Of a DNA stretch of 64,000 bases, positions 41,278-58,611 are shown piece after piece. The notes under the pieces are model-generated. The model worked only from the letters and a program-made list of their open reading frames with translations. It ran no database searches and was not told the DNA's origin. The stretch is from positions 6,881,001 to 6,945,000 of the forward strand of contig NZ_FNTD01000004.1 of the NCBI RefSeq assembly GCF_900104815.1. The letters are read 5' to 3'. Position 1 is the stretch's first letter. Each line of letters opens with the position of its first letter. Origin of the DNA: Streptomyces misionensis. Its GTDB lineage: Bacteria > Actinomycetota > Actinomycetes > Streptomycetales > Streptomycetaceae. A program made the position numbers and the translations under genes.

Positions 41278-42276
41278 TCAGGGCAGCGTCACCACCTGTG
41301 CCGCATGGGCCAGTCCCGCGCCGAAGCCGACCAGCAGGGCCGGGTCGCCGCCGGCGAGCCTACCCTGGGCCAGCAACTCCTCCATGGCCAGCGGGATGGA
41401 CGCGGCCGAGGTGTTGCCCGAGGTGACCACGTCCCTGGCCACCACCGTGTGCGGGGCGAGCCCCAGGGACTTCGCGGCCACGTCGACGATCCGGGCGTTG
41501 GCCTGGTGCGGGATGAACGCGGCCAGGTCGGCGACGCCGAGGCCCGCCCGGCGCAGTGCCTCACGGGACACCTCCGGCATCACCCGCGTCGCCCAGCGGA
41601 ACACCTCCGGCCCCGCCATCCGCAGCGCGGCACCCGCCCGGGGCGTCTCGCCCACCGGGGGCCAGGCGCGGTCGTGCGCGATCATGTGGTGCCGGGACCC
41701 CTCGGAGCCCCACACCACCGGACCGATGCCCGGGGTCTCGGACCGGCCGACCACCACCGCCCCCGCGCCGTCGCCGAACAGGAAGGCGGTGCCGCGGTCC
41801 CGCGGGTCCACGATGTCGCTCATCCGCTCCGAGCCGACCACCACCACCGCGCGCGCGTCCCCGGAGCGGACCAGGGAGTCGGCGAGCCCCAGCGCGTAGC
41901 AGAACCCGGAGCAGGCGGCACCGATGTCCAGGCTGCCCGCCGCCCGTGCGCCCAGCTGATGGGCGACACGGGGCGCGGCGGCCGGGGACTGCTCCAGGAA
42001 GGACATGGTGGCCACCAGCACCATGCCGATCTCGTCCGGATCGGTGCCGGCCTGCGCCATCGCCTTGCGCGCCGCCTCCACGGCCATCGTGATCACGGTC
42101 TCGTCCGGGCCCGCGAAACGCCTGCTGACGATTCCGGAGCGCCGCCGGATCCACTCGTCGCTGGAGTCGATGCGGGCGCAGATCTCCTCGTTGGTCACCA
42201 CCCGCGACGGCCGGTAGACACCGATGCCGAGGATCCGGGAGCCGGGGTGCGGATCGGGAAGCCGCAGCCGGGCCAT
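41278..42276 (-). CDS. 3-oxoacyl-ACP synthase III (KAS III/FabH-like)
   Basis: 332 residues. Catalytic Cys122 in IGAACSGFCYALG, His in FIPHQANARI and Asn in TSGNTSAASIP form the KAS III triad. ATG 42276 overlaps the FAAL stop by one base. It would condense an acyl-CoA or acyl starter with a malonyl-ACP, or transfer an acyl group as some cluster-borne KAS III enzymes do. Together with the fatty acyl-AMP ligase it forms an acyl-priming pair transcribed away from the PKS-NRPS; the lactacystin scaffold has no fatty acid, so its role here is open. Confidence 0.9.
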   Translation of the reverse strand: MARLRLPDPHPGSRILGIGVYRPSRVVTNEEICARIDSSDEWIRRRSGIVSRRFAGPDETVITMAVEAARKAMAQAGTDPDEIGMVLVATMSFLEQSPAAAPRVAHQLGARAAGSLDIGAACSGFCYALGLADSLVRSGDARAVVVVGSERMSDIVDPRDRGTAFLFGDGAGAVVVGRSETPGIGPVVWGSEGSRHHMIAHDRAWPPVGETPRAGAALRMAGPEVFRWATRVMPEVSREALRRAGLGVADLAAFIPHQANARIVDVAAKSLGLAPHTVVARDVVTSGNTSAASIPLAMEELLAQGRLAGGDPALLVGFGAGLAHAAQVVTLP

Positions 42277-44057
42277 CACGCCTCCCGCCCACGGGCGGCG
42301 GTCGCCGGCGTCCGCCCGGCCGCCAGGGCGGCCAGCTCGCCGTTGAGATAGCGCGCCCGGCACGCCCGCCGCTGCACCTTGCCGCTCGACGTCCGGGACA
42401 GCGCGCCGCGCCGGACGAGCAGCACCTCGTCGGCCGTCAGCCGGTGGTCCTCCCGGACCGCGGCGCCGATCCGCTCCCGCAGGGCGTCCGCCCCCGGCGA
42501 GCGCAGCACCCGCCCGTCCGCCTCCAGGACGACGACGAGCCGCTCCCGCACGCCGTCGTCCACGGAGAACGCGGCGGCGCAGTTCGGGTGCAGCCCGGGC
42601 ACGGCCCGTTCGGCGGACAGCTCGATGTCCTGCGGGTAGTGGTTGCGGCCCTGGCGGATGATGACGTCCTTGAGCCGCCCGGTGACGTACAGGTCGCCCT
42701 CGTACAGGAAGCCGAGGTCGCCGGTGCGCAGATGGGGCCGGGCGTCCCCGCCCTCGACGCGGGCCCGGAAGGTGGCCTCGCTCTCCTCGGGCCGGTCGCG
42801 GTAACCACCCGCCACACAGGGCCCGTCGACCCAGATCTCGCCGACCTCGCCGGGCGGCCGGGGTAGCCGGGAGTCCGGGTCCACGATCCGCACCCGGGTG
42901 GTGCCGACCGTGCTCCCGCTGCTCACCAGCGGCAGCGCGTCCCCGGCGGTGTCGGCGACCCGCCGTACGGTGCCCTCGCGCAGCGCCCCGGCGTCGACCC
43001 ACAGCACGGTGGGCTCCCGGTCCTGGTTGTCGCCCGTCACCTTCAGGGTGTTCTCGGCCAGCCCGTAGCCCGGGCACATGGCGGCGGCCCGGAAGCCGTG
43101 CGGCGCGAAGGCGGCGGTGAAGGCCCGGATCGTGGGCCAGCGCACCGGTTCGGCGCCGTTGGCGGCCACCCGCCAGCGGGAGAGGTCGCCGACGCCGCTC
43201 GTCGCACCGTCGGCGGCGGCGCGGGCGCACAGCTCGTAGGCGAAGCTGGGCGCCGCGGCGTGGGTGCCGCCGAACCGGGCGATGGCCTCCAGCCAGCGGG
43301 CCGGCCGGCGGATGAAGGACTCGGGCGCCATCAGGTACGACGGGATGCCCGACCACAGCGGCAGCACGACACCGAAGAGCATGCCCATGTCGTGGAAGAG
43401 CGGCAGCCAGTTCACCACCGTGCCGTCGGGCTCGCAGGGCCACAGCTCGTCCGTCTCGGCCACGTTCGCCAGGAAGTTGGCGTGGCTGACCATGACGCCC
43501 TTGGGGTCGCCGGTGGAGCCCGAGGTGTACTGGAGCAGCGCGATGTCCTCGGGTCCGGGCGGCTCGGGCAGGACGCCCGGCCCGGGCGCCGGGTCCGGGG
43601 CGTCGGTGGCCAGCAGGGTCAGCCCGGCCAGGTCCGGCAGGTCGCCGAAGCGCTCGTACATCTCCGCACGGACCCCGGTGGTGGTCAGCACGGTGGTGGT
43701 GCCCGCGTCGTCGGCGATGCGCCGCAGCCGCCGGACGGCCTCGCGGCGCCGGGGGACCTGCACGGGCGCGCCGGCCACCCGGCCGTACATGCAGCCCAGC
43801 AGGGTGCGGATGAACTCCAGCCCGGACGGGTACAGCAGCACGGCCCGGCCGCCGGACAGCCCGGCCGCGACCAGGCGGGCGGCCCTGGCGCGGGCGGCCT
43901 CGTGCAACGCGCGGTAGGTGAGCGCGGACTCCGGCTCCTCGCCGTCGCGCAGGAAGACGTAGGCGGTCTCGTCGGGCTGCTTGGCGCTGCGCAGCCGCAG
44001 GGCGTCGGGCAGGGTGCGCACCTCATCCGCGTGCGGATCGAGTCCGGTGGTGTTCAC
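42276..44057 (-). CDS. fatty acyl-AMP ligase (FAAL)
   Basis: 593 residues, GTG start. ANL-superfamily motifs: YTSGSTGDPKGVMVSHAN (P-loop), NWLPLFHDMGMLFGV, and GYGLAENTLKVTG, the last two being the FAAL pattern that separates it from acyl-CoA ligases; LRTGDLGFLYEGDLYVTGRLKD continues the set. It activates a fatty acid as acyl-AMP for transfer to an acyl carrier protein. The AAGGAGAT RBS lies inside the end of the small upstream ORF. No dedicated ACP is nearby except those within LctA. Confidence 0.92.
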   Translation of the reverse strand: MNTTGLDPHADEVRTLPDALRLRSAKQPDETAYVFLRDGEEPESALTYRALHEAARARAARLVAAGLSGGRAVLLYPSGLEFIRTLLGCMYGRVAGAPVQVPRRREAVRRLRRIADDAGTTTVLTTTGVRAEMYERFGDLPDLAGLTLLATDAPDPAPGPGVLPEPPGPEDIALLQYTSGSTGDPKGVMVSHANFLANVAETDELWPCEPDGTVVNWLPLFHDMGMLFGVVLPLWSGIPSYLMAPESFIRRPARWLEAIARFGGTHAAAPSFAYELCARAAADGATSGVGDLSRWRVAANGAEPVRWPTIRAFTAAFAPHGFRAAAMCPGYGLAENTLKVTGDNQDREPTVLWVDAGALREGTVRRVADTAGDALPLVSSGSTVGTTRVRIVDPDSRLPRPPGEVGEIWVDGPCVAGGYRDRPEESEATFRARVEGGDARPHLRTGDLGFLYEGDLYVTGRLKDVIIRQGRNHYPQDIELSAERAVPGLHPNCAAAFSVDDGVRERLVVVLEADGRVLRSPGADALRERIGAAVREDHRLTADEVLLVRRGALSRTSSGKVQRRACRARYLNGELAALAAGRTPATAARGREA

Positions 44058-45158: not shown

Positions 45159-48100
45159 ATGCCCCATGAGCGCGGAGCGCTCACTGCGCGCGCCGTCACA
45201 GACTTCCTGCTTTCTCGCGTCGTCGAGCTGCTGGACGTGTCCAAGGACGCGGTGGACCGCTGGGCCCCGATGCACCAGTACGGCCTGGAGTCGGTGAAAG
45301 CCGCGGCGCTCGCCGCCTCGCTCTCCGAGTTCCTCGGCTGGAAGGTCCCCGTCACCTGGATGTGGCAGTACCCGACCATCGACGAACTGAGCCGTGCGCT
45401 CGTCGACGGTCCCCGGACCACACAGACCACCGCACCGGTCACCGACCGCCGCACGGCGGCGCGGGAGCCGGTCGCGATCGTCGGCATCGGCTGCCGCTTC
45501 CCGGGCGGCCCGGACCCGGACGCGTTCTGGCGGCTGCTGACCGAGGGCCGCGACGCCGTCGGACCGGTGCCGGCCGAGCGCCGCGCACTCCTGCGCGACA
45601 GCGTGCGCTGGGGCGGGTTCATCGACGGCATCGACCGGTTCGACCCGCTGTTCTTCGGCATCTCGCCCCGGGAAGCCGTCCAGATGGACCCGCAGCAGCG
45701 ACTGGTGCTCGAGCTGGCCTGGGAGGCGCTGGAGGACGCGGGGATCGCGCCCCGGGGCCTCGTCGGCAGCGACACCGGCGTCTTCATGGCCTCCTGCTGG
45801 GGCGACTACGCGGCACTCGCGCACTATCGCGGCCCCGACAGCCAGATCACCCCGCACACCGCGACCGGCATGCACGACGGCATCATCGCCAACCGCGTCT
45901 CCTACGTCCTCGGACTCCAGGGCCCGAGCATGGCCATCGACGCCGCCTGCGCCGGATCGCTGGTCTCGGTGCACCTGGGCTGCCAGTCGATCTGGATGGG
46001 CGAGAGCGAACTGGTGCTGGCCGGCGGCGTCAACCTGAGCTTCGTCTCCGACTACTACACCGCCATGGACCGGATGGGCGCGCTCGCCCCGGACGGCCGC
46101 TGCAAGACCTTCGACGCCCGCGCCGACGGCTACGTCCGCGGCGAGGGCGCCGGTGTCGTCGTACTCGCCCCGCTGAGCGTGGCGCTCGAACGCGAACTCC
46201 CCGTGTACTGCCTGATCAAGGGCAGCTCGGCCAACAACGACGGGGCCAGCAACGGCATGACCGCGCCCAACCCGCAGGCGCAGGAGCTGATGCTCCGTAC
46301 CGCCTACCGGCGGGCCGGCATCGCGCCGTCCCTCGTGGACTACATCGAGTGCCACGGCTCCGCGACCCCGCTCGGCGACCCCATCGAGGCCAACGCCATC
46401 GGCGCGGTCTTGGGCGGTGACCGCCCGGTGCCGCTGCGGCTCGGTTCCGTGAAGTCCAACGTCGGTCACCTGGAGGCCGCGGCCGGCATCGTCGGCCTGG
46501 TCAAGCTCGCGCTGTCGATCCGCAACGGGGTGCTGCCCCCGAGCCTGCACTACGCCACCCCCAACCCGCAGATCCTCTTCGACGAGTACGGCCTCACCAT
46601 CCAGGACCGGCTGACGCCGTGGCCGCGACGGTCCGACGCGCGCCGCGGGGGAGTCAGCTCGTTCGGCTTCGGCGGCGCCATCTGCCACGTCGTCGCCGAG
46701 GAACTGCCGCGCCCCGAGGGCTCCCTCGTCCTGCTGGCCGAGGACTCGCCGCAGGCGCTGGCCGAGCGCGCCCGGGCGCTGCGCGACGAGCACGACCTGC
46801 GCGCGATCAGCGGCCGGCCGCCCGGCGACGGCGGCTTCCGGCTCGCGGCCGCCGCCCGCGACATGACCGAGCTGAGGGCGCAGCTGGACGCGTTCGCCGA
46901 CGGTACGGCGGCGCCCGGGCTGAGCGTCGGCCGGCGGGGCGACCGCAGGCCCAGGGTGGCGTTCCTGTTCTCCGGAAACGGCTCGCAGTGGGTCGGCATG
47001 GGCAGGCAACTGCTCGCCGGGATGCCGGTGTTCCGCCGCTCCATGATGCGCTCCGACAAACGGATGCGGGAGCTGCTGGGCTTCTCGCTGGTCGACCAGC
47101 TGCTGGCGCCCGACGGGCGGCTCGACGACATGGACGTCTTCCAGCCGCTGCTGTTCTGCATGCAGGTGGCGCTGGCCGACGCCTGGCGCTCGCTGGGCGT
47201 GGAGCCCGACGTGGTCGTCGGACAGAGCGTCGGCGAGTTCGCCGCCTCCCACATCGCCGGGGCCCTCGACTTCGAGGACGCCTCCCGGCTGGCCGCCTGC
47301 CACGGCCGGCTCCTCCAGCAACTGGCCGTCGGGCGCGGCGAGGGCATCGTGGTCACCACCGGCGCCGACGCCGTCAGGCGGTACCTGACCGGGCAGCTCA
47401 CGGTGTCCGGCCACAACGGCCCGAACTCCACGCTGGTCACCGGCACCCCGCAGGAGATCGACGACCTCGTCCGGCGGCTGACCGAGGAGGGCCTGACGAC
47501 CCACCGGGTGCGGATGGGCCACGCCCCGCACTCCCCGCTGGTCGACCACGTCCTCGCCCCGCTCAAGGCCGAACTCGCCGGCCTCACGCCCCGGACCACC
47601 CGGATCCCGATGATCTCCACGGTCACCGGCGAACGCGTCGACGGCGCCGAACTCGGACCGCAGTACTGGGCGGACAACCTGCGCCGGGAGATCCGGGTCG
47701 TCGACGCCCTGACCACCCTGCGCGACCACGACATCGACGCGGTGATCGAACTCAGCCCGCACCCCGTGCTGCTCAAGTCGGTCACGGAGATCCTCGGCGC
47801 CGCCACCCTGCCCTCGCTGCGCCGCGGCACCGACGAGGCCTGGACCCTGCTGGGTTCCCTCGGCGCGCTGTTCGCCGCCGGGCACCCCGTCACCGCGAGC
47901 CCGTTCCTCGCGGGCGACCGGGGACGCCACGCCACCCCCCGCCAGGGCGCCCCCGCGACCGACGAACGGCCGCACCTCGTGCCCGTCACGGCGCACTCGG
48001 CCGCCGCGCTGGCCGACACCTGCCGGGAACTGTCCAACCACGTCGAACGCGACCCGGGCCTGCGGGTGTCCGACCTCGCCTACACCCTGGCGACCAGGCG

Positions 48101-51100
48101 TTCCCCGCAGAACCACCGGGTGGCGCTGTTCGCCCGCGACCGGCAGGAGGTCCTGGACGGCCTCGCCCGGGTCGCCGCCGGCCGGCCGCACCCGGACGTC
48201 GTCACCGGCACGGTCACCGGCACCGGCGACCGGCGCGTGGTGCTGGTGTTCTCCGGCGGCGGCACCCACTGGGTCGGCATGGGCCGTGAACTCATGCGCA
48301 CCCACGACGGATTCCGCACCTGGATGCGGGCCTGCGACAGCGCGGTACGCGCGGCCGGCGGCTGCTCCGTCCTCGAACAGCTCGACGCGCCGCAGGAGTC
48401 GGCCCGGTTCGAGGAGATGGACTTCCAGCAACCCGTCCTGTTCGCCCTCCAGGTCTCGCTGGCCAAGGTCTGGCTCGGGCTCGGGGTACAGCCGGCCGCC
48501 GTCGTCGGGCACAGCCTCGGGGAGGTCGCGGCCGCGTGCGTGGCCGGATCGCTGTCCCTTAAGGACGCCGCCCGCGTCGTGGTCGCCCGCTCGCACCTGC
48601 TCGAACGCAAGGCCGCACCCGGCGCGATGATCTCCGTCGACCTGCCCGAGCGCGACCTGCTGCCGTGGCTCGTCCCCTACGCGAAGCACGCCGCGATCGC
48701 CGTGGTCAACAGCCCCACCAGCGCGGCCGTCTCCGGCTCGCCCGAAGCCGTCCGCGCCCTGGAGGCCGAGCTGCGGCGGGCGGGGGTCTCCACCAGGAAC
48801 ATCCGGGTCGAACGACCGGTGCACAGCCCCGGCATGGACCCGCTGATCGAGCCGCTGCGCGAACGCATCGCCGGCATCACCCCGGCCGCCGGCACCATCG
48901 ACTTCCACTCCACCGCCCTGGCCGACACGGTGAACCCGGTCGTCGACGTCGACTACTGGGTGCACAACCTGCGCAACCAGGTCCGGTTCGCCGAGACGAT
49001 CGGCGCGCTGGTCGCGGACGGCGTCGGCACCTTCGTGGAGATCGGCCCGCACGAGACGCTGCGCGGCGCGGTCGAGGAGATCGCGCTGAGCCGCGGCACC
49101 CCCGTGCACGCGGTCAACTCGCTGCGGCGCGGCGAGAGCGACCTGCGCTGCCTGCTGGGGGCCGCCGCGTCGCTGTTCGTCAGGGGCATCCCGCTGACCT
49201 TCGACTCGCTGTTCGCCGACGACGTCGAGGTCGTGGAGACCCCGCTCGTGCAGTGGCAGAAGGAACGTTTCTGGTTGGACGTCGAGCCGCATGCCGACGC
49301 GGCGCCCGAGGCGGTCGCGGCCCCGGCCCCGGCACCGGCGGCACAGACCGCGGCCACGCCCGCGACCGCCCCCGCCGACACCAGGCCGCCCGAGGAGGTA
49401 CTCGTCGGCGAGATCGCCGACGTGCTCGGCGTCGACGAGCACAGGCTCGACGCGGACTCGCGGCTGCGCGACTTCGGCCTCGACTCCATGCTGGCGATCC
49501 GCCTGGTCAACAAGGTGCAGTCGCTGTTCGGGCAGCGGGTGTCGCCGGTGGTGTTCCTGGACGGGCGCACCATCGGGGAGATCGTCGCCCACCTCACCGA
49601 GGCCACCCGGGAACCGGCCGCGACCGCGACGGCCGAGCCGCCCCCGCCCGCCCCGTCCGCCGCGCCCGCCCCGCCGGCTCCGGCCCCCCGGCCGGAGCCG
49701 GCACCCGGGCCCGGGCGCGCGGCGGCCCTCCCCGACGGGCTGTCCGAGATCGACGCCGGGGAACTGGTCGAGGAACTGGCCGTGCGCGGCCTGCTGGAAC
49801 CCACCGACGCCCCGGCACTCGACCAACTGCGCGCCGACGGCCTCGGCTTCCGCATCGCCCCGGCCTCGCACGGCCAGGCCTCCCTGTGGTTCATGCAGCA
49901 GATCGCGCCGGACGCCGTGCCCTACAACTTCATGGTGGCCGCCCGGATCCGCACCGAGGTGGACGAACAGGCCCTGGAAGGCGCCGTGTCCGCCGTGATC
50001 GAGCGGCATCCCGCGCTGCGCACCGTCTTCGTGGAGGCGGGCGGCAGCCCCTACCAGGTCATCCTCGACGACCCGGAGTACGAGTTCGTCGTCCTGGACG
50101 GCCCGGACCTGGACGAGGAAGAGGCCCGCGAGGAACTGGCCGTCCAGGGCCACCTGCCCATGGACCTGGACAACGGGCCACTGGTGCGCGTTGTGCTGCT
50201 CACCCGCGGCCCCGCCGACCACTACCTGCTGGTCCTGGTGCACCACATCGCCTCGGACGCGGCCTCGGCCGACGTGATGATCCGCGAACTCCAGGAGTTC
50301 TACGCGGGCGCCGACCCCGCCGACCGCGAACCGGCCGCCCCCTACACGGAGTTCGTGGAGTGGGAACGGCAGTGGCTGGCCGGCCCGGCCGCCGACGCCG
50401 CCCTCGACTGGTGGGCCGAGCGGCTGGCCGACCCGCCCGCCCGCCTCGACCTGTCCCCCGGACAGCGCCCGCCCGGCGTCACCTACGAGGGCCGCGACCT
50501 CACCTTCCGCTGGAGCACGGAAGAGACCCGCGTCCTGCGGGAGTTCGCGGTGCGCGAGGGCGTGTCGATCAGCACCGTGGCACTGGCCGGCTTCTTCGCC
50601 ACCCTCAACCGCGCGGCCGGCGTCGAGGACTCCGTGCTCGCCACCGCCATCGCCCAACGCGGCGAGCCCGGCTGGGAGTCGGCCATCGGCTACTACCTGA
50701 ACACGGTGCTGGTGCGCGCGAAACCGGCGGGCGACCGCTCCTTCCGGGAGCTGCTGCACGAGGTCCACGCGTTCTCGCTCGGCCTGCTGGAGCACATGAA
50801 CTACCCCCTCGACCTGCTGGCGTCCACCCTGAAGCCACCGCGGACCGAGGGCCGCTCCCCGTGGTTCGACGTCGTGCTCAACTGGCTGTCCGCGGACGCC
50901 TTCCCGCGCTCCGTCAAGCTCTTCCACGGCATCGGCGACACCATCGCACCCGACGGCGCCCTGCCGCTCGAACCGCTGCCCGTCCGCAGGCACCTCGCCA
51001 AGTTCGACCTGGAGATCTCCATGGCCGAGATCTCCGGCGAAGTGGTCGGCCATGTCCAGTACAAACCGAGCTACCTGGAGAAGCAGACCGTGACGGCACT

Positions 51101-51203
51101 GCTCAGCCTCTACCGCACCGTGCTCTTCGACTCGATCGCCCGACCCGACCTGGCACTGGACGCCATCGCGCCGGCCGGCCTGTCCGAGGGGACGGACCAG
51201 TGA
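45159..51203 (+). CDS. lctA: hybrid PKS-NRPS, ACP-KS-AT-AT-ACP-C (LctA-type)
   Basis: 2014 residues from ATG 45159 with GAGGAGG upstream. Domains in order: loading ACP (~1-90, Ser45 in GLESV); KS (~100-525, Cys264, His399, His437); AT1 (~600-880, Ser690 in GQSVGE, but His715 where the carboxylate-binding Arg belongs); AT2 (~1025-1320, Ser1119 in GHSLGE, Arg1144 kept); ACP (~1405-1480, Ser1443); Pro/Ala linker; condensation domain (~1570-2000, His1695-His1696 and Asp1700 in HHIASDAAS). No KR, DH or ER. This fits formyl loading by AT1, methylmalonyl by AT2, KS condensation to methylmalonyl-semialdehyde-ACP and transfer by C to leucine on the next protein, as I recall reported for lactacystin. 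Confidence 0.88.
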   Translation: MPHERGALTARAVTDFLLSRVVELLDVSKDAVDRWAPMHQYGLESVKAAALAASLSEFLGWKVPVTWMWQYPTIDELSRALVDGPRTTQTTAPVTDRRTAAREPVAIVGIGCRFPGGPDPDAFWRLLTEGRDAVGPVPAERRALLRDSVRWGGFIDGIDRFDPLFFGISPREAVQMDPQQRLVLELAWEALEDAGIAPRGLVGSDTGVFMASCWGDYAALAHYRGPDSQITPHTATGMHDGIIANRVSYVLGLQGPSMAIDAACAGSLVSVHLGCQSIWMGESELVLAGGVNLSFVSDYYTAMDRMGALAPDGRCKTFDARADGYVRGEGAGVVVLAPLSVALERELPVYCLIKGSSANNDGASNGMTAPNPQAQELMLRTAYRRAGIAPSLVDYIECHGSATPLGDPIEANAIGAVLGGDRPVPLRLGSVKSNVGHLEAAAGIVGLVKLALSIRNGVLPPSLHYATPNPQILFDEYGLTIQDRLTPWPRRSDARRGGVSSFGFGGAICHVVAEELPRPEGSLVLLAEDSPQALAERARALRDEHDLRAISGRPPGDGGFRLAAAARDMTELRAQLDAFADGTAAPGLSVGRRGDRRPRVAFLFSGNGSQWVGMGRQLLAGMPVFRRSMMRSDKRMRELLGFSLVDQLLAPDGRLDDMDVFQPLLFCMQVALADAWRSLGVEPDVVVGQSVGEFAASHIAGALDFEDASRLAACHGRLLQQLAVGRGEGIVVTTGADAVRRYLTGQLTVSGHNGPNSTLVTGTPQEIDDLVRRLTEEGLTTHRVRMGHAPHSPLVDHVLAPLKAELAGLTPRTTRIPMISTVTGERVDGAELGPQYWADNLRREIRVVDALTTLRDHDIDAVIELSPHPVLLKSVTEILGAATLPSLRRGTDEAWTLLGSLGALFAAGHPVTASPFLAGDRGRHATPRQGAPATDERPHLVPVTAHSAAALADTCRELSNHVERDPGLRVSDLAYTLATRRSPQNHRVALFARDRQEVLDGLARVAAGRPHPDVVTGTVTGTGDRRVVLVFSGGGTHWVGMGRELMRTHDGFRTWMRACDSAVRAAGGCSVLEQLDAPQESARFEEMDFQQPVLFALQVSLAKVWLGLGVQPAAVVGHSLGEVAAACVAGSLSLKDAARVVVARSHLLERKAAPGAMISVDLPERDLLPWLVPYAKHAAIAVVNSPTSAAVSGSPEAVRALEAELRRAGVSTRNIRVERPVHSPGMDPLIEPLRERIAGITPAAGTIDFHSTALADTVNPVVDVDYWVHNLRNQVRFAETIGALVADGVGTFVEIGPHETLRGAVEEIALSRGTPVHAVNSLRRGESDLRCLLGAAASLFVRGIPLTFDSLFADDVEVVETPLVQWQKERFWLDVEPHADAAPEAVAAPAPAPAAQTAATPATAPADTRPPEEVLVGEIADVLGVDEHRLDADSRLRDFGLDSMLAIRLVNKVQSLFGQRVSPVVFLDGRTIGEIVAHLTEATREPAATATAEPPPPAPSAAPAPPAPAPRPEPAPGPGRAAALPDGLSEIDAGELVEELAVRGLLEPTDAPALDQLRADGLGFRIAPASHGQASLWFMQQIAPDAVPYNFMVAARIRTEVDEQALEGAVSAVIERHPALRTVFVEAGGSPYQVILDDPEYEFVVLDGPDLDEEEAREELAVQGHLPMDLDNGPLVRVVLLTRGPADHYLLVLVHHIASDAASADVMIRELQEFYAGADPADREPAAPYTEFVEWERQWLAGPAADAALDWWAERLADPPARLDLSPGQRPPGVTYEGRDLTFRWSTEETRVLREFAVREGVSISTVALAGFFATLNRAAGVEDSVLATAIAQRGEPGWESAIGYYLNTVLVRAKPAGDRSFRELLHEVHAFSLGLLEHMNYPLDLLASTLKPPRTEGRSPWFDVVLNWLSADAFPRSVKLFHGIGDTIAPDGALPLEPLPVRRHLAKFDLEISMAEISGEVVGHVQYKPSYLEKQTVTALLSLYRTVLFDSIARPDLALDAIAPAGLSEGTDQ

Positions 51204-53020
51204 CCCAGACCCTGCACGCGCAGTTCGCCGAACAGGCCGCCCGGACCCCGGACGCCACCGCGGTCTACGCCGACGCCGGCGTCGTCACCTACCGCGAGCT
51301 GGACGAGCGGTCCCGCCGGCTCGCCGAACGGCTCACCGCCGAGGGCGCCGGTCCCGGCGTCCCGGTCGGCGTCTGCGTCGAGCGCACGCCCGACCTGCTC
51401 GCCGGCATCCTGGCCGTCCTGCGCACCGGCTCCTGCTACGTCCCGCTGGACCCCCGGTACCCCGCCGAGCGGCTGGCCTTCATGGTCCGCGACAGCGGAA
51501 CCCGCCTGCTGCTGACCACGCCCGCCTCCCGCGCCAACTGCCCGGCCGGACCGACCATGGTGGTGCTGGACGGGACCGTGACGACCGAGCCCGGCGAGAA
51601 GCCCGTACCGGTCGTGCCCGGCGACACCGCCTACGTGATCTACACCTCGGGCTCCACCGGGCGGCCCAAGGGCGTGGCCGTACGGCACGGCGGCTGCGTC
51701 GCCATGCTGTCCGCGATGGACCGGGTCCTGGCCGGCTGCGACCTCAGCGGCGTCTCCGCGGCCAGCTCCATCTGCTTCGACATGTCCGTGATGGAGATCT
51801 TCCCCGCGCTGTGCCGCGGCGGCGCCGTCGTGCTCGTGGAGAGCGCCGTCCACCTCCCCGAGAGCCCGCACGTCGACCGCATCACCCACCTGCACGCCAT
51901 CCCCTCCGTGATGAACACCCTGCTGGACGCCGGCGGCCTGCCCCCGAACCTGCGCACGGTCGTGTTCGGCGGCGAACCCCTGCGGCGCAAGCTGGTCGAC
52001 CGGGTGTACCAGGAGACCGGCGCCGACCGGGTCTTCAACGCCTACGGGCCCACCGAGGGCACCGTCTTCTGCACCTTCGGACCGGTGCCCGAGAACGGCA
52101 CCGACGAGCCCACCATCGGCCCGCCCACCGACGGCGCCCGGGTCTACGTGCTCGACGAGAACCTGAAGCCGCTGCCGCCCGGCGTGCCCGGCGAGCTGTA
52201 CCTCGGCGGCGCCGGCCTCACCCACGGCTACGTCAACCGGCCGCGCACCACCGCCGAACGGTTCGTCCCCGACCCGTTCCGGGACGGCGAGCGCATGTAC
52301 CGCACCGGCGACGTCGTCCGGCTGACCGACAGCGGCGAACTCGAGTTCGTCGGCCGCACCGACAACCAGGTCAAGGTGCGCGGCCACCGCATCGAACTGG
52401 AGGAGGTCGAGGCCCGGCTGACCGGCTGCCCCGAGGTCCGGGAGGCCGCCGCCGTCGTACGGGGCCGCAGGCTCCTCGGGTACGTCGTGCCCGAGGGCGA
52501 GGCGCCCGACGGCGTCCGGGTGGACGCCGCGCTCCAGGCCACCGTCACCGGCAAGCTCGCCACCGAGCTGCCCGACTACATGATCCCCTCGGCGATCGTC
52601 CTGCTGCCCGCGCTCCCGCTGACGCCGGGCGGGAAGCTCGACCGCGCCGCGCTCCCCGAGCCGCCGGCCGCCGGCACCGGGCGCCCGGTGACGCCGGCCG
52701 GCACCCCGACCGAGGTGGCGCTGGCGGAGATCTGGGGCCAGCTGCTCGACCTCGAACCGGCGAGCATCGACGTCCGGGCCGCCTTCTACGACCTCGGCGG
52801 CGACTCGCTGCTGCTGGTCCGGCTGGCCCGGCTGATGACCCGGCGGTTCGACCGCCGGGTCCGCGTGCCCGACCTGTTCAGCTTCCGTGACATCCACTCG
52901 CTCGGCCGCTGGCTGGACGACGAGAGCGGCGCCACCCCCGAGGCCGTGCAGTCGGCCCGCCGCCGGGCCACCGTCCGCCGCGCCGCGCTGCGCGGCCGCG
53001 CCGCCTCCGGCGGCAACTGA
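51200..53020 (+). CDS. lctB: NRPS module, adenylation-PCP (LctB-type)
   Basis: 606 residues, GTG within the lctA stop (GTGA overlap). Adenylation core motifs YTSGSTGRPKG, NAYGPTEGT, YRTGD and TPGGKLDR; PCP with Ser536 in GGDSLLL. Reading the pocket by eye gives Asp at the first position (CFDMSVME) and mostly hydrophobic residues (Met, Met, Gly, Ala, Val, Phe), compatible with leucine, though I could not align it formally. There is no C domain (supplied by LctA) and no thioesterase, so product release must come from another protein. A basic tail (SARRRATVRRAALRGR) ends the protein and may dock to LctC. Confidence 0.88.
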   Translation: MTQTLHAQFAEQAARTPDATAVYADAGVVTYRELDERSRRLAERLTAEGAGPGVPVGVCVERTPDLLAGILAVLRTGSCYVPLDPRYPAERLAFMVRDSGTRLLLTTPASRANCPAGPTMVVLDGTVTTEPGEKPVPVVPGDTAYVIYTSGSTGRPKGVAVRHGGCVAMLSAMDRVLAGCDLSGVSAASSICFDMSVMEIFPALCRGGAVVLVESAVHLPESPHVDRITHLHAIPSVMNTLLDAGGLPPNLRTVVFGGEPLRRKLVDRVYQETGADRVFNAYGPTEGTVFCTFGPVPENGTDEPTIGPPTDGARVYVLDENLKPLPPGVPGELYLGGAGLTHGYVNRPRTTAERFVPDPFRDGERMYRTGDVVRLTDSGELEFVGRTDNQVKVRGHRIELEEVEARLTGCPEVREAAAVVRGRRLLGYVVPEGEAPDGVRVDAALQATVTGKLATELPDYMIPSAIVLLPALPLTPGGKLDRAALPEPPAAGTGRPVTPAGTPTEVALAEIWGQLLDLEPASIDVRAAFYDLGGDSLLLVRLARLMTRRFDRRVRVPDLFSFRDIHSLGRWLDDESGATPEAVQSARRRATVRRAALRGRAASGGN

Positions 53021-53052
53021 GTCCCCCGACCCGACCCGAGCAGGAGCCTTTC

Positions 53053-54834
53053 ATGTCCGACAGTCCAGAGCAGGACTACGACCCGGGCGACGTGGCCGTC
53101 ATCGGCATCTCGTGCCGGGCCCCCGGCGCCCGCACCAAGGAACAGTTCTGGGACAACCTCGTGCACGGCAGGGAGTCCGTGACGTTCCTCGCCAAGGACG
53201 AGATCACGGTCGACGAGACCCTGATCAACAACCCCTATTACGTACGGGCCTGCGGCATCCTCGAAGGGTACGACGCGTTCGATCCGTCGGTGTTCGGCAT
53301 CAGCGACCGGATGGCCGCCGTGATGACCCCGGAGAACCGGCTCTTCGTGGAGAGCGCCTGGGAGGCGCTGGAGGACGGCGGCTACGACCCCGACCGGATC
53401 ACGGGCGAGGTGGGCATCTACGGCGCCAACAACCCGCAGACCGCCGCCCTGTACAGCTCCCCGCCGGACCGGGTGTCGGTCGGGCCCGAGGCGATCGAGC
53501 ACGGCCTGGCGTGGTCGCCGGACACCATGACGTCCAACGCCCTCTACTACATCGGGCTGACCGGCGAGGCCGTCACCGTCACCACCGCCTGCGCCGGCTT
53601 CCACTACGCGGTGCACCTGGCCTGCCAGTCCCTGCTGCTCGGCCAGACCGACCTGGCGATCGCCGGCGGCGCCATGGTCCGGCTGCCGCAGCCCCGGGGC
53701 CATCTGTGGGAGGAGGGCCGCATCCTGTCCCGGGACGGCCACTGCCGCCCCTTCGACGCGGGCGGCACCGGCGCCGCCCTGTCCAGCGGCGTCGCCACCC
53801 TGCTGCTCAAACCACTGGCCGAGGCGGTCGCCGACCGCGACCACATCTACGCCGTGATCAAGGGCTCGGCCATCAACAACAACGGCGTCAGCGCGATGGC
53901 GTACGGACTGGCCCAGCCCGAGCGGCTCAGCGCCTGCATCGCGGGCGCCATGCAGGTCGGCGGCGTCACCCCGGAGACGGTCTCCATGTACGAGGCCAAC
54001 GGTCTCGGACTGCCGATGACCGACCAGCTCGAAGTGCACGCGGTGAGCATGGCGTTCGGCAAGCAGACCGGCACCTGCTCGATCGGCTCGGTCAAGAGCA
54101 ACGTCGGCCACGGCGGCGTGGTCGCGGGCGGCTTCGGCGCCGTGAAGGCCGCGCTGGCCCTGTACCACCGGACGCTGGCGCCGACGATCAACCTGACCGA
54201 CGTCGACCCGGACATCGACTTCCCCAGCACCCCGTTCGTGCCGCAGCTGGAGGCGGCCGACTGGGAGCCGGAGGCCGGCGTCCGCCGCGCGGGCATCACC
54301 GCGATCGGCGGCGGCGGATACAACGCGCACCTGGTCCTGGAGGAACCGCCGGCCCTCGCCGAGCGGGCCCCCGAGACCGCCGGACCGCGACTGGCCACCC
54401 TGTCCGCCCTGGACGACGAGGCACTGGCCGACCGGCGCGCCCGGCTGCGGGACTGGCTGGTCGCCAACCCCGAACTGCGCCTGGACGACGTGTGCTTCAG
54501 CCTCAACCTGGGCCGCCGGGCGATGGACCGCCGGTGGGCGGCCGTGGTCCGCAGCCGCGAGGAACTGATCGAGGCGCTGTCCGCCGACGCGCCCCGCGGC
54601 CTGGTCACCACGACGGCCGCCGCGCCCCGGGTGGACGAGGACTCGCTGCGCCACGACGACCGCGGGATCGTGCCGTCCGGCCAGGACGCACCGGCCCTGT
54701 TCGACGTCGCCGCGGCCTGGGTGACCGGCCGCCGGGTGGACTTCGACGCCCTGCACCGGGGCGAGACCAGCCACCGGGTGCCGCTGCCCACCTACCCGTT
54801 CCGGCCGCGCCGCCTCTGGCGGACGGACTGGTGA
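53053..54834 (+). CDS. lctC: stand-alone ketosynthase-like bicyclisation enzyme (LctC/SalC-type)
   Basis: 593 residues. KS fold (~1-430) with nucleophile Cys180 in TTACAGFHYAV and His353 in KSNVGH, but the first catalytic His (normally EAHGTGT) is Asn316 in YEANGLGLPMTD. A Cys-Asn-His triad is not that of a chain-elongating KS and agrees with SalC, shown to act as intramolecular aldolase and beta-lactone synthase. The last ~160 residues resemble a KS-AT linker joined directly to a post-AT tail (HRVPLPTYPFRPRRLW), as if an AT had been excised from a modular PKS. It should take the aldehyde-leucyl chain from LctB, close the gamma-lactam and release the beta-lactone. GTGA overlap with lctD. Confidence 0.9.
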   Translation: MSDSPEQDYDPGDVAVIGISCRAPGARTKEQFWDNLVHGRESVTFLAKDEITVDETLINNPYYVRACGILEGYDAFDPSVFGISDRMAAVMTPENRLFVESAWEALEDGGYDPDRITGEVGIYGANNPQTAALYSSPPDRVSVGPEAIEHGLAWSPDTMTSNALYYIGLTGEAVTVTTACAGFHYAVHLACQSLLLGQTDLAIAGGAMVRLPQPRGHLWEEGRILSRDGHCRPFDAGGTGAALSSGVATLLLKPLAEAVADRDHIYAVIKGSAINNNGVSAMAYGLAQPERLSACIAGAMQVGGVTPETVSMYEANGLGLPMTDQLEVHAVSMAFGKQTGTCSIGSVKSNVGHGGVVAGGFGAVKAALALYHRTLAPTINLTDVDPDIDFPSTPFVPQLEAADWEPEAGVRRAGITAIGGGGYNAHLVLEEPPALAERAPETAGPRLATLSALDDEALADRRARLRDWLVANPELRLDDVCFSLNLGRRAMDRRWAAVVRSREELIEALSADAPRGLVTTTAAAPRVDEDSLRHDDRGIVPSGQDAPALFDVAAAWVTGRRVDFDALHRGETSHRVPLPTYPFRPRRLWRTDW

Positions 54835-56072
54835 GCGTGCGCGCGCCGGCCCCGGAGACCGTCGACCTGGGCGACCCCGGCACCTTCGCGGACCACGACC
54901 TCGACGCGTTCTGGCGCACCCTGCGCGACACCGCGCCGGTGCACTGGAACCCGCCGGCCGACGGCCGCCCGGGGTTCTGGGTGGTCTCCCGCCACGACGA
55001 CATCATGGCCGCCTACCGGGACGACGAGCACTTCACGTCCGAGCGCGGCAACGTGCTCGTCACCCTGCTGGGCGGCGGGGACGCCGGGGCCGGCCGGATG
55101 CTGGCCGTCACCGACGGGCACCGGCACCACGAGCTGCGCAAGATCCTCCAGCGGGTGCTGTCGCCGCGGGTGCTCAGCGACGTCGCGGCGGCGGTGCGGG
55201 CCAACACCCGGCAGCTGATCCGCGAGGCGGTCGAGAGCGGCGGCTGCGACTTCGCCGAGCAGATCGCCGCCCGCATCCCGATGACCACGATCTCCAACCT
55301 GCTCGGCGTGCCCGAGCAGGACCGCGACTACCTGCTCGAACAGACCAAGGCCGCGCTGTCGGCCGACACCGAGGACGTCGACGAGGTCGACTCCGAGATG
55401 GCCCGCAACGAGATCCTGCTGTACTTCATGGACATGGTCGAGGAGCGGCGCGAGACGCCCGGCGACGACGTGATCAGCATGCTGATCGCCAGCTCCATCG
55501 ACGGGGTGCCGCTGTCCGACGAGGACATCGTGCTCAACTGCTACAGCCTGATCATCGGCGGCGACGAGACCAGCCGGCTGACGATGATCGACGGCGTGCA
55601 CACCCTCGCGGCCCGCCCGGACCAGTGGCGGCGGCTCAAACACGGCGAGGTCGCGATCGACACCGCCGTGGACGAGGTGCTGCGCTGGGCGTCGCCCACC
55701 ATGCACTTCGGGCGCACGGTCGTCCGCGAGACCGAGCTGCACGGCGTACCGCTGCGGCCGGGCGAGATCGTCACGCTCTGGCACGCCTCCGGCAACCGGG
55801 ACGAGCGGGTCTTCGACCGGCCCGGCGAGTACGACCTCGGCCGCACCCCCAACAAGCACCTGGCCTTCGGCTACGGCCCGCACTTCTGCCTCGGCTCCTA
55901 CCTGGCCAAGGTGGAGATCGCCGAACTCCTCATGGCCTTGCGGGACTTCACGACCGGGTTCGAGCAGACCGGCGAGGCGTTGCGCATCCGGTCCAACTTC
56001 CTGACCGGGTTCTCCACGCTGCCGGTGCGGTTCTGGCCCGACGACTCCGGAATGAAAGAGGTCGACCGATGA
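54831..56072 (+). CDS. lctD: cytochrome P450, probable leucyl-PCP beta-hydroxylase (LctD-type)
   Basis: 413 residues, GTG in the lctC stop. I-helix IIGGDETSRLTM, ExxR in DEVLRWASP, heme loop FGYGPHFCLG with Cys353. The GGDETSR form of the I-helix recurs, as I recall, in P450s that hydroxylate amino acids tethered to carrier proteins. Lactacystin carries a hydroxyl on the leucine-derived side chain, and this is the natural candidate for adding it. Redox partners are not in the operon; the ferredoxin pair at 35383-36937 could serve. ATGA overlap with lctE. Confidence 0.88.
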   Translation: MSVRAPAPETVDLGDPGTFADHDLDAFWRTLRDTAPVHWNPPADGRPGFWVVSRHDDIMAAYRDDEHFTSERGNVLVTLLGGGDAGAGRMLAVTDGHRHHELRKILQRVLSPRVLSDVAAAVRANTRQLIREAVESGGCDFAEQIAARIPMTTISNLLGVPEQDRDYLLEQTKAALSADTEDVDEVDSEMARNEILLYFMDMVEERRETPGDDVISMLIASSIDGVPLSDEDIVLNCYSLIIGGDETSRLTMIDGVHTLAARPDQWRRLKHGEVAIDTAVDEVLRWASPTMHFGRTVVRETELHGVPLRPGEIVTLWHASGNRDERVFDRPGEYDLGRTPNKHLAFGYGPHFCLGSYLAKVEIAELLMALRDFTTGFEQTGEALRIRSNFLTGFSTLPVRFWPDDSGMKEVDR

Positions 56073-56266
56073 GCGGCAACCCCTTCGACGGCGGTGAGGG
56101 CGACTGGCTGGTGGTGGCGAACGAGGCCGGACAGCACGCGCTGTGGCGGCCGTATCTGGAGCTGCCGAAGGGCTGGCGGATCGTCCACCGCGGCCCCCGC
56201 CGCGACGACGCCCTCGACTACGCCGAACAGAACTTCACGGCTCCGGTGGACACGCCGACGGCCTGA
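56069..56266 (+). CDS. lctE: MbtH-like protein (LctE-type)
   Basis: 65 residues. NPFD at the start, WLVVANEAGQHALW, LPKGWRIVH and the C-terminal ALDYAEQNFT match the MbtH family, small chaperones that bind and activate NRPS adenylation domains. The usual LWP reads LWR, a minor variation. Its only A-domain partner in the window is LctB, three genes upstream. ATG overlaps the lctD stop by 4 bp. The equivalent gene in the salinosporamide cluster is salE. Confidence 0.93.
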   Translation: MSGNPFDGGEGDWLVVANEAGQHALWRPYLELPKGWRIVHRGPRRDDALDYAEQNFTAPVDTPTA

Positions 56267-56300
56267 ACAGGTACCCGACCAGCGAGCGCCGGGAGCGCGA

Positions 56301-56996
56301 GTGAACATCTACATTTCAGGGCAGGGGGCGTTCGCGGTGCAGGTCGCGGACGCCCTGTGGGACGAAGGACACCGGATCGCGGGCGTGGCCGCCCCCCGGC
56401 TGCGCAAGGGGCACTGCGACGAGAGCAACGCGATGTCCTGGGACCGGCTGCGCTCCTGGGCGTACCCCAGGAGCGTCCCGTGGACGGACTCGGCCGAACT
56501 GCGCGCGATGCACGTGCCGGACGGGGTGGACATCATCGTCGCCGCGCACTCGCACGCCTTCATCGGCCGCCGAACGCGCGCCCGCGCCGCCGTCGCGGCC
56601 ATCGGCTACCACCCCAGCCTGCTGCCCCTGCACCGGGGGCGGGACGCGATCCGCTGGACGATCCGCGACGGGGACAAGGTGACCGGCGGCAGCGTCTACC
56701 ACCTCACGGAGCGCACCGACGGCGGCCCGATCGCCGCGCAGGAGCACCTGTTCGTGCCCCCGGGCTCGACCCCGCAGAGCCTGTGGCGCGAGCATCTGGC
56801 GCCGCTCGGGGTGCGGTTGCTGGTGCGGGTGGTCGCCGACCTCGCCGAGGGCCGGCGCATCGAGGTCCCCCAGGACGAGAAGCTGGCGACCTGGGAGCCC
56901 GCGATGGACGCGCAACCGCTGTTCAAACCCGAACTCATCGCGCTGCCCGGAACGGCACTCGTCGACGGCAGCAAGTGGGCCCTGCACGCCCGGTGA
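56301..56996 (+). CDS. lctF: formyltransferase (LctF-type)
   Basis: 231 residues from GTG 56301 (GGGAG upstream). The tetrahydrofolate-formyltransferase core is recognisable: IVAAHSHAFIGRRTRARA, the catalytic-loop HPSLLPLHRGRDAIRW and TGGSVYHLTERTDGGPI with the catalytic Asp. It lacks the C-terminal domain of methionyl-tRNA formyltransferase (~310 residues), so it acts on something other than tRNA. In the lactacystin pathway, as I recall it, this enzyme moves the formyl group of 10-formyl-tetrahydrofolate to CoA, giving formyl-CoA for the first AT of LctA. That explains a starter unit of one carbon. Confidence 0.88.
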   Translation: MNIYISGQGAFAVQVADALWDEGHRIAGVAAPRLRKGHCDESNAMSWDRLRSWAYPRSVPWTDSAELRAMHVPDGVDIIVAAHSHAFIGRRTRARAAVAAIGYHPSLLPLHRGRDAIRWTIRDGDKVTGGSVYHLTERTDGGPIAAQEHLFVPPGSTPQSLWREHLAPLGVRLLVRVVADLAEGRRIEVPQDEKLATWEPAMDAQPLFKPELIALPGTALVDGSKWALHAR

Positions 56997-57151: not shown

Positions 57152-57268
57152 ATGCACAACGGATCATCACGGGGACGGGCCCGCCCGGCCGCGGACGGCC
57201 GGCAGCCGGGCTTCGGCGGCCGGCGCCCGTCGGACGGCCGCGGCGTGTTCCCCGGCAGGCCCGCATGA
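57152..57268 (+). CDS. possible 38-residue Gly/Arg-rich leader ORF before the exporter
   Basis: ATG 57152 with GGGGAGAGGAAG upstream; it stops in an ATGA overlap with the exporter start at 57265. The product is dominated by Gly, Arg and Pro (GRQPGFGGRRPSDGRG). It may be a coupling leader peptide, or an upstream extension of noncoding DNA open by chance. Confidence 0.3.
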   Translation: MHNGSSRGRARPAADGRQPGFGGRRPSDGRGVFPGRPA

Positions 57269-58611
57269 CCAGCGTCGCGACGACGTCGCAGCAGAGGTCG
57301 GGTCTGGCGCTCGGAGTGCTGGCCGGGGCGCTCGCACTGGATCTGAGCGGAATGGCCGTACTGAACGCGGCCCTGCCGTCCGTCGGCGCGCGCTTCGGCC
57401 TGGCCGACACCACCCTCCAGTGGGTGATGACGGCCTACTCCGTCACGTTCGCCGGCTTCCTGCTGGTGGGCGGCCGGCTGGCCGATGTGTTCGGCAGGCG
57501 GCGGGTGTTCGAGGCCGGGGTCGCCCTGTTCACGGCGGCTGCGCTGGTCGGGGCCCTGGCACCGGACGGCGCGGTGCTGCTCGGCGCGCGGGGCGTCCAG
57601 GGCATCGGCGCGGCCCTGTCCGGCCCGGCCGCCCTCGCCCTGCTGACCGAGGTGTTCCCGGAGGGGCCGGAGCGCGGTCGCGCGCTCGGCGTGTACGCCG
57701 CGGTCGGCGCGGCCAGCTTCAGCGGCGGCATGCTGCTGGGCGGCGTGCTGACCGAGTTCCTCGGCTGGCGGTCGGTGCTGTGGTTCTCCGTGCTGCTCGG
57801 CGTGCTCGTGCTCGCGGTCACCCGGGCCGGGCTGCCCGACGGGACGGGCCGCAGGGGGCCGGTGGACATGGCCGGCGCGGTCTTCGGCACCCTCGGTCTC
57901 GCGCTGCTCGTCGTCGGCGTGAGCCTCGGCGGGACGTGGGCCTGGGCCCTGGTGGCCGGCGCGGTGCTCTTCCTGGTGCTCTTCGTCGTCCGCGAACGCG
58001 GCACCGCCGACCCGCTGCTGCCGCTCGGCCTGTTCCGGGTCCCGTCGGTACGGCTGGCGACCGCGGCGGCGTTCCTCCAGTACACGGCGTCGGTCGGCAT
58101 CGTGTTCTTCGCGCCCCTGTACCTCCAGGGGATGCTGGGGTACTCCCCGGTCGAATCGGGTCTCTCCCTGGTGCCGATGTCGCTGACGGTGTTCCTCACC
58201 GCCAGCTTCGTCACCGGACGGCTGCTGACCAGGTTCAGCCCGCGGACCCTGATGGTCACCGGGCTGGTGCTGATCGGCGCGGGCACGGCGCTGTGGGTCA
58301 CCACCCCGCACCACGGCGACTACCTGCTGCACGTGATGCCCGGACTGGTGATCAGCGGCCTCGGTCAGGGCCTGAACTTCCCGGCGATGACCACGGCCGG
58401 CCTGGGCGGCGTGCCGCCGCACCAGCACGCGGTCGCCGGCGCGGTGAACGTCGTCGCCCAGCAGATCGGCTCCAGCGCCGGAGTCGCGGCCCTGGTCCTG
58501 GTCGCGGCGACCGCGAACGACCGGCTGTCGGGCTACCACCTGGCCTATCTCGTGGCCGGCGTGGCGTGCGTGGCAGGTGCCGCGGGCGTCGCCGCGACAC
58601 GGCGCAGCTGA
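57265..58611 (+). CDS. MFS drug exporter (DHA2-like)
   Basis: 448 residues with about twelve to fourteen hydrophobic segments. The first helix LALDLSGMAVLNAALPSVGARFGL and the loop GGRLADVFGRRRVF are characteristic of proton-driven multidrug exporters; RGVQGIGAALSGPAALALL is the antiporter-type helix. Directly downstream of lctF, it is the likely exporter of the cluster product and may contribute self-resistance. A strong terminator follows, so it probably closes the cluster. Confidence 0.9.
   Translation: MTSVATTSQQRSGLALGVLAGALALDLSGMAVLNAALPSVGARFGLADTTLQWVMTAYSVTFAGFLLVGGRLADVFGRRRVFEAGVALFTAAALVGALAPDGAVLLGARGVQGIGAALSGPAALALLTEVFPEGPERGRALGVYAAVGAASFSGGMLLGGVLTEFLGWRSVLWFSVLLGVLVLAVTRAGLPDGTGRRGPVDMAGAVFGTLGLALLVVGVSLGGTWAWALVAGAVLFLVLFVVRERGTADPLLPLGLFRVPSVRLATAAAFLQYTASVGIVFFAPLYLQGMLGYSPVESGLSLVPMSLTVFLTASFVTGRLLTRFSPRTLMVTGLVLIGAGTALWVTTPHHGDYLLHVMPGLVISGLGQGLNFPAMTTAGLGGVPPHQHAVAGAVNVVAQQIGSSAGVAALVLVAATANDRLSGYHLAYLVAGVACVAGAAGVAATRRS

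Follow-up and report, generated by a model that had tools for sequence, protein, structure and literature searches.

Does a run of six genes in the 8.47-Mb genome of Streptomyces misionensis encode a pathway to a lactacystin-type γ-lactam-β-lactone, and what would supply the starter of its polyketide chain? The window, which is the whole 64,000-nt stretch of DNA analysed (own-genome position C4:6881001-6945000), holds these genes on its forward strand between 45159 and 56996, and all six reading frames are open. The comparisons below make it highly likely that they form a lactacystin-type cluster in which a formyl start, a probable methylmalonyl extender and leucine would be combined. Judged from its sequence, the product of the cluster is very probably lactacystin, an inhibitor of the proteasome, or a close relative. 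The six genes and the transporter gene that follows them are:

45159–51203 (+): PKS-NRPS of the LctA/SalA type, 2014 aa, ACP1-KS-AT1-AT2-ACP2-C
51200–53020 (+): stand-alone NRPS module A-PCP of the LctB/SalB type, with a hydrophobic pocket, probably for leucine
53053–54834 (+): stand-alone ketosynthase-like bicyclisation enzyme (KS) of the LctC/SalC type, Cys180-Asn316-His353, best PDB match SalC
54831–56072 (+): cytochrome P450 of the LctD type, probable β-hydroxylase of a carrier-bound amino acid
56069–56266 (+): MbtH-like helper protein of the LctE/SalE type (Pfam MbtH)
56301–56996 (+): formyltransferase (FT) of the 10-formyl-THF and LctF type, 231 aa, His104-Ser106-Asp140, lacking the Asn found in amine-directed relatives
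57190–58611 (+): MFS transporter (Pfam), probable exporter, a neighbour in related loci

Gene layout and related loci

Pfam searches, all matches being above the cut-offs, find two PP-binding domains, a ketoacyl-synthase, two Acyl_transf_1 domains and a Condensation domain in the PKS-NRPS. The remaining five proteins match AMP-binding plus PP-binding, ketoacyl-synthase, p450, MbtH and Formyl_trans_N, respectively. Together with the open frames, these domains bear out the order ACP-KS-AT-AT-ACP-C, A-PCP, KS, P450, MbtH and FT given by the first-pass annotation. The 4-bp couplings that it placed between the genes hold at three of the five junctions (PKS/A-PCP, KS/P450 and P450/MbtH), whereas the A-PCP/KS and MbtH/FT junctions have intergenic gaps of 32 bp and 34 bp. 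No resistance gene was recognised inside the cluster.

A scan for related loci listed the best 80 of 556 relatives, records very close to the window's own being perhaps excluded. Among the 80 are 28 loci (L005-L032, in 26 genomes) with a KS 77–98% identical to that of the window; the other 52, at 36–43%, were left out of the counts, and L127 and L129 were left out of the analysis. The genes for the PKS, A-PCP, KS, P450 and FT occur together in 28/28 of these listed loci at 60–99% identity, which argues that the six-gene set is not a product of chance, and in every one of the 28 FT lies near the KS. The PKS gene is 78–94% identical across them, contig ends cutting L007, L009 and L024, and MbtH was found in 11. 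Gene order in L032 differs from that of the window. An MFS gene lies by the cluster in 23 of the 28 loci, and in 22 of these it runs opposite to the PKS gene; the five without it are the three loci cut inside the PKS, L012 with a 30% match only, and L032, where the gene lies further along the contig.

Two further features of the region were noted. About 1.1 kb upstream of the PKS gene and divergent from it, the reverse strand of the window (41278–44057) encodes a ketosynthase of the KASIII type and an AMP-ligase whose C-terminus is DIP2-like. Of the 28 listed loci, in which the stretches compared reach about 2–4 kb upstream, L005 alone matches the reading frame containing the KASIII, and only partially. 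In one S. alfalfae assembly, three contigs carry letter-identical 21.8-kb cluster regions (L020, L021 and L022), which represent either a recent triplication or an assembly duplicate. They belong to one genome; all three enter the 28-locus count and the counts of 29 and 32 rows used below, and one enters the 26-genome count.

The linkage extends to whole genomes. Across 199 Streptomyces genomes the KS (E ≤ 1e-180) occurs in six, and FT (E ≤ 1e-50) occurs in the same six and in 0/193 others. At the level of the class, two of 394 genomes have the KS, the window's own and the Streptomyces genome G570, and one, the window's own, has FT (E ≤ 1e-70).

The amino acid half and the extender unit

The pocket of the adenylation domain, read by hand, gives the hydrophobic code D-M-M-A-V-G-A-V-F-K, which is not known to match any leucine code exactly. 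At the position read as 278, the FT-bearing rows of the alignment have 17 Val, 13 Ala, 1 Met and 1 Ser, and the other pocket positions show little variation among them. The position read as 322 is Ala in 31/32 FT-bearing rows and Gly in L032 and G570, a hybrid and an FT-free cluster described below, a hint that the pocket of these two would accommodate a bulkier side chain. As a whole, the code hints weakly at a domain that probably activates leucine.

The closest solved relative of the P450 over the full length is 4l0e (514 bits, the second match reaching 310 bits), labelled only 'P450 monooxygenase' in the PDB, which we take to be P450sky, the β-hydroxylase of skyllamycin. The skyllamycin P450 Sky32 has been reported to β-hydroxylate PCP-bound Phe, O-methyl-Tyr and Leu. 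Both the P450 and, to a weak degree, the pocket of the adenylation domain support leucine, one of the building blocks named by the first-pass annotation.

The extender is addressed by the two AT domains of the PKS-NRPS. Both have erythromycin-type (EryA) ATs among their nearest solved relatives, and neither has YASH, the methylmalonyl-AT signature. The AT1 motif is HAPHS in 29/29 FT-bearing rows versus YASHS in G570, and the AT2 motif of the window PKS is PVHS. The EryA-type relatives make methylmalonate a plausible extender. The unusual AT motifs, along with the variation at position 278 among FT-bearing rows, leave room for the proposal that lactacystin-type enzymes here make a new analogue, with another side chain or extender, and not lactacystin itself. 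We regard this as unlikely, given that the other pocket positions are nearly constant and that the P450 belongs to a kind able to act on leucine.

The formyltransferase and the polyketide half

In single-sequence and profile searches of the PDB, FT finds its best matches in N-terminal domains of 10-formyl-THF dehydrogenase (FDH), with which it has the motif YHPSLLPxHRG in common. His104-Ser106-Asp140 of FT matches the FDH triad, reported as His106-Ser108-Asp142, and is invariant in the 34 sequences aligned (the window FT and 33 picked from 120 homologues listed). The residue two before the His is Gly in FT and Ile in FDH, and Asn in three other members of the family from the same genome, which are read as PurN-, Fmt- and PurU-like; in a fifth, weak member of the own genome (L186) no motif was readable. 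Since a His-Ser-Asp triad is described as common to FMT and ArnA as well, only the missing Asn sets the thiol-directed type apart. The fold was given little weight because the AlphaFold model of FT is weak (mean pLDDT 65.5, with residues 106-151, over the active site, below 50) and because Foldseek, run on this low-confidence model, placed FDH on top with Fmt close behind. FDH (ALDH1L1) is reported to pass formyl to a 4'-phosphopantetheine arm, and the N-domain of HypX has been proposed to move formyl to CoA. The likeness to FDH points to FT as an FDH-like, thiol-directed formyltransferase whose acceptor would be CoA (most likely) or ACP1. Among the matches listed, homologues of FT at 70–79% identity come from Micromonospora, Actinokineospora, Actinophytocola, Jatrophihabitans and Actinocrinis (P0062, P0072, P0074, P0093 and P0116).

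The megasynthase that this enzyme would serve is well kept. The active residues of ACP1, KS, AT1, AT2 and ACP2 are retained in 29/29 FT-bearing rows that cover them, three rows being cut off, and those of the C domain and the PCP in 32/32. All 29 rows read DAACAGS at the KS motif of the PKS, where G570 has DTACSAS. Two intact ATs kept beside FT would fit a route that leads from FT through formyl-CoA to loading by an AT. In a 2025 paper, LctF reportedly formylates CoA and an LctA AT loads ACP1.

A comparison with a cluster that does without FT is informative, its FT-free side being one cluster, that of G570 (L166, L167). This salinosporamide-like core is 60–74% identical to the window (MbtH 53%), and FT has no match in the 36 kb around it, nor genome-wide at E ≤ 1e-70. 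A proteasome β-subunit gene (Phe45/Val49) lies 6.7 kb from its PKS gene, and OCD, PhzF and zinc-ADH genes are close by. A natural hybrid, L032/L128 in Streptomyces sp. SID12501, joins the two kinds. Its PKS, KS and FT are 79, 75 and 82% identical to those of the window, versus 63%, 65% and absent for G570; its A-PCP, P450 and MbtH are 75, 82 and 67% identical to those of G570, versus 61, 69 and 53% for the window. These identities come from stop-to-stop frames and are slightly lower than tblastn values. In this one hybrid, therefore, FT travels with the polyketide half. The activity of the hybrid is in doubt, since its SalC-type KS has Asn for the catalytic His. The next 19 kb of the hybrid hold genes for a β-subunit (Phe45/Val49), zinc-ADH, 3HCDH, KASIII, aminotransferase IV, OCD, PhzF and MFS proteins, as well as a prephenate-dehydratase-like gene below the Pfam cut-off.

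Formate as a building block, also proposed in the first-pass annotation, is backed by the closest relatives of FT and by its linkage to the PKS/KS pair. Under another reading, methylmalonyl semialdehyde would instead arrive ready-made from valine or isobutyrate breakdown, with FT acting elsewhere, for example in N-formylating an amino acid. Many enzymes of the FT family formylate amines, and in older feeding work isobutyrate and valine reportedly label lactacystin, both of which speak for such an origin. This reading is at odds with the segregation of FT with the PKS and KS, not with the A-PCP and P450, in the natural hybrid, and with the lack in FT, as in FDH, of the Asn carried by the three family members of the same genome. 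It is also hard to square with the unbroken retention of PKS active residues in the 29 covering rows, and we consider this origin improbable.

The lactacystin-type reading draws further support from the stand-alone KS. Searched against PDB sequences, it finds SalC (7s2x) at 956 bits over its full length, the runner-up reaching 566 bits. Alignment with SalC, part of the comparison suggested earlier, gives an end-to-end match with Cys, Asn and His at identical places, and the Cys-Asn-His claimed for the enzyme is found as Cys180, Asn316 and His353. Among its homologues (the best 120 of 1735), Cys is present in 120, Asn in 104 and His in 116, and 31/32 FT-bearing rows keep all three, the exception being L032. 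A KS tree built from 46 rows gathers all 30 FT-bearing sequences into a single clade (support 100/99) and places G570 elsewhere; the S. alfalfae copies are counted once, and 15 added homologues (P rows) carry no FT assignment. The KS of Salinispora fenicalii, among the matches listed, is 68% identical to that of the window. Relatives of the KS also occur on replicons filed as Streptomyces plasmids (NZ_CP081497.1:252431-254212, 87.5%; NZ_CP118575.1:118554-120341, 68.3%).

The SalC-like KS, the shared core order and the identities of the core genes to G570 could also be read as signs of a cluster of the salinosporamide/cinnabaramide type that starts from acetyl and takes up an amino acid that is bulky or unusual, FT being incidental. 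An incidental FT is hard to reconcile with its presence in all 28 listed loci and in the same 6/199 genomes as the KS, and the window KS belongs to a supported clade apart from G570. Neither OCD, PhzF, prephenate-dehydratase nor zinc-ADH was found among the 30 window ORFs run through Pfam; OCD, PhzF and ADH-type genes are present in G570 and the hybrid instead. Clusters of the salinosporamide/cinnabaramide type would have no FT and a cluster-borne β-subunit, whereas here FT is present and the gene for the extra β-subunit of the genome lies about 657 kb off. Such a cluster is very improbable. Each enzyme named fits a cluster of the FT-bearing branch, which is distinct from the FT-free salinosporamide-like cluster, in agreement with the γ-lactam-β-lactone reading of the first-pass annotation. 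That the cluster is a degenerate remnant is scarcely credible, with six open frames, every active residue read kept and the same cluster at 94–99% identity (MbtH 91%) in Streptomyces misionensis strain 66, its nearest named relative among the matches listed.

Predicted pathway and known systems

The chemistry that we infer for the lactacystin-type cluster would run as follows. With 10-formyl-tetrahydrofolate as donor, FT would pass formyl to the thiol of a phosphopantetheine arm, most likely that of CoA, from which one of the two ATs would load ACP1, or possibly that of ACP1 directly. Methylmalonyl-semialdehyde-ACP2 would arise as the KS of the PKS condenses formyl with the extender, which is probably methylmalonyl, on ACP2, and the C domain would link the methylmalonyl semialdehyde to leucine activated by A-PCP with the help of MbtH. 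The P450 would hydroxylate the β-carbon of leucine on the carrier. The SalC-type KS would then take the chain, perform an aldol reaction of the leucine α-carbon onto the aldehyde followed by β-lactonisation, and clasto-lactacystin β-lactone (omuralide) would be released. The MFS protein would export omuralide, which a cysteine thiol would trap to form lactacystin.

A producer of such an inhibitor could be shielded by a spare proteasome subunit. The own genome encodes an extra β-subunit at C4:7595146-7595997 (L086, L126), about 657 kb from the cluster, with Phe45/Val49 versus the housekeeping Val45/Ala49; Phe45 and Val49 are presumably the substitutions of SalI. This extra β-subunit occurs in 34/199 Streptomyces genomes, the own included, with Phe45/Val49 in 30/30 copies compared, and, among the matches listed, in 6/26 related genomes. 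It is found in 4/6 cluster-bearing versus 30/193 other Streptomyces genomes (Fisher p 0.008; 0.034 once the own genome is left out; kinship ignored in both). Judging from identical coordinates, the sets of 26 and 199 genomes share at least two members (G029 = G024 and G173 = G018). As a self-resistance part of the cluster, the spare β-subunit was set aside, kinship being uncorrected and the genome sets overlapping. A tentative proposal, on which we keep some reserve, combines two ideas: that these clusters consist of two exchangeable halves (PKS, cyclase and FT; A-PCP, P450 and MbtH) that have recombined into hybrids such as that of Streptomyces sp. SID12501, and that the window's producer is shielded by the unlinked Phe45/Val49 β-subunit, with which the genus would be lastingly protected from such inhibitors.

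The window adds an intact lactacystin-type cluster for a sequenced Streptomyces, and the related loci show that genomes of this branch bear the labels Streptomyces, Kitasatospora and Streptantibioticus. Linkage and the hybrid together provide an independent comparative argument that FT feeds the polyketide half, and FDH-like formyl transfer onto a thiol is indicated as the PKS's source of its one-carbon starter.

A comparison with known systems sets this cluster in context. The genes lctA-lctF, as we take them to be arranged, encode a PKS/NRPS, an NRPS, a KS-like cyclase, a P450, an MbtH protein and a formyltransferase in the same order as the window; a literature search found no paper on the lct genes. 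The salinosporamide core order salA-salE is also that of the window. Lactacystin is described as an NRP-PK product of Streptomyces lactacystinicus/lactacystinaeus OM-6519 that was made heterologously in S. avermitilis SUKA22. Since the lactacystin cluster appears from that description to have been expressed heterologously before, the kind is already known and the window cluster is one more member. Its likeness to the OM-6519 cluster is one of gene content, and the host species is apparently different. The sal cluster of Salinispora tropica has a SalC-type KS with the same Cys-Asn-His, but of the two only the window cluster has FT, and it has no proteasome subunit, unlike the sal cluster, within which the SalI subunit gene is reported to be located. 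The window P450, unlike P450sky, would serve a single A-PCP module. Finally, FT resembles the N-terminal domain of FDH/ALDH1L1 in lacking the Asn and having His-Ser-Asp, and differs from it in standing alone as a protein of 231 aa and in its low identity overall.
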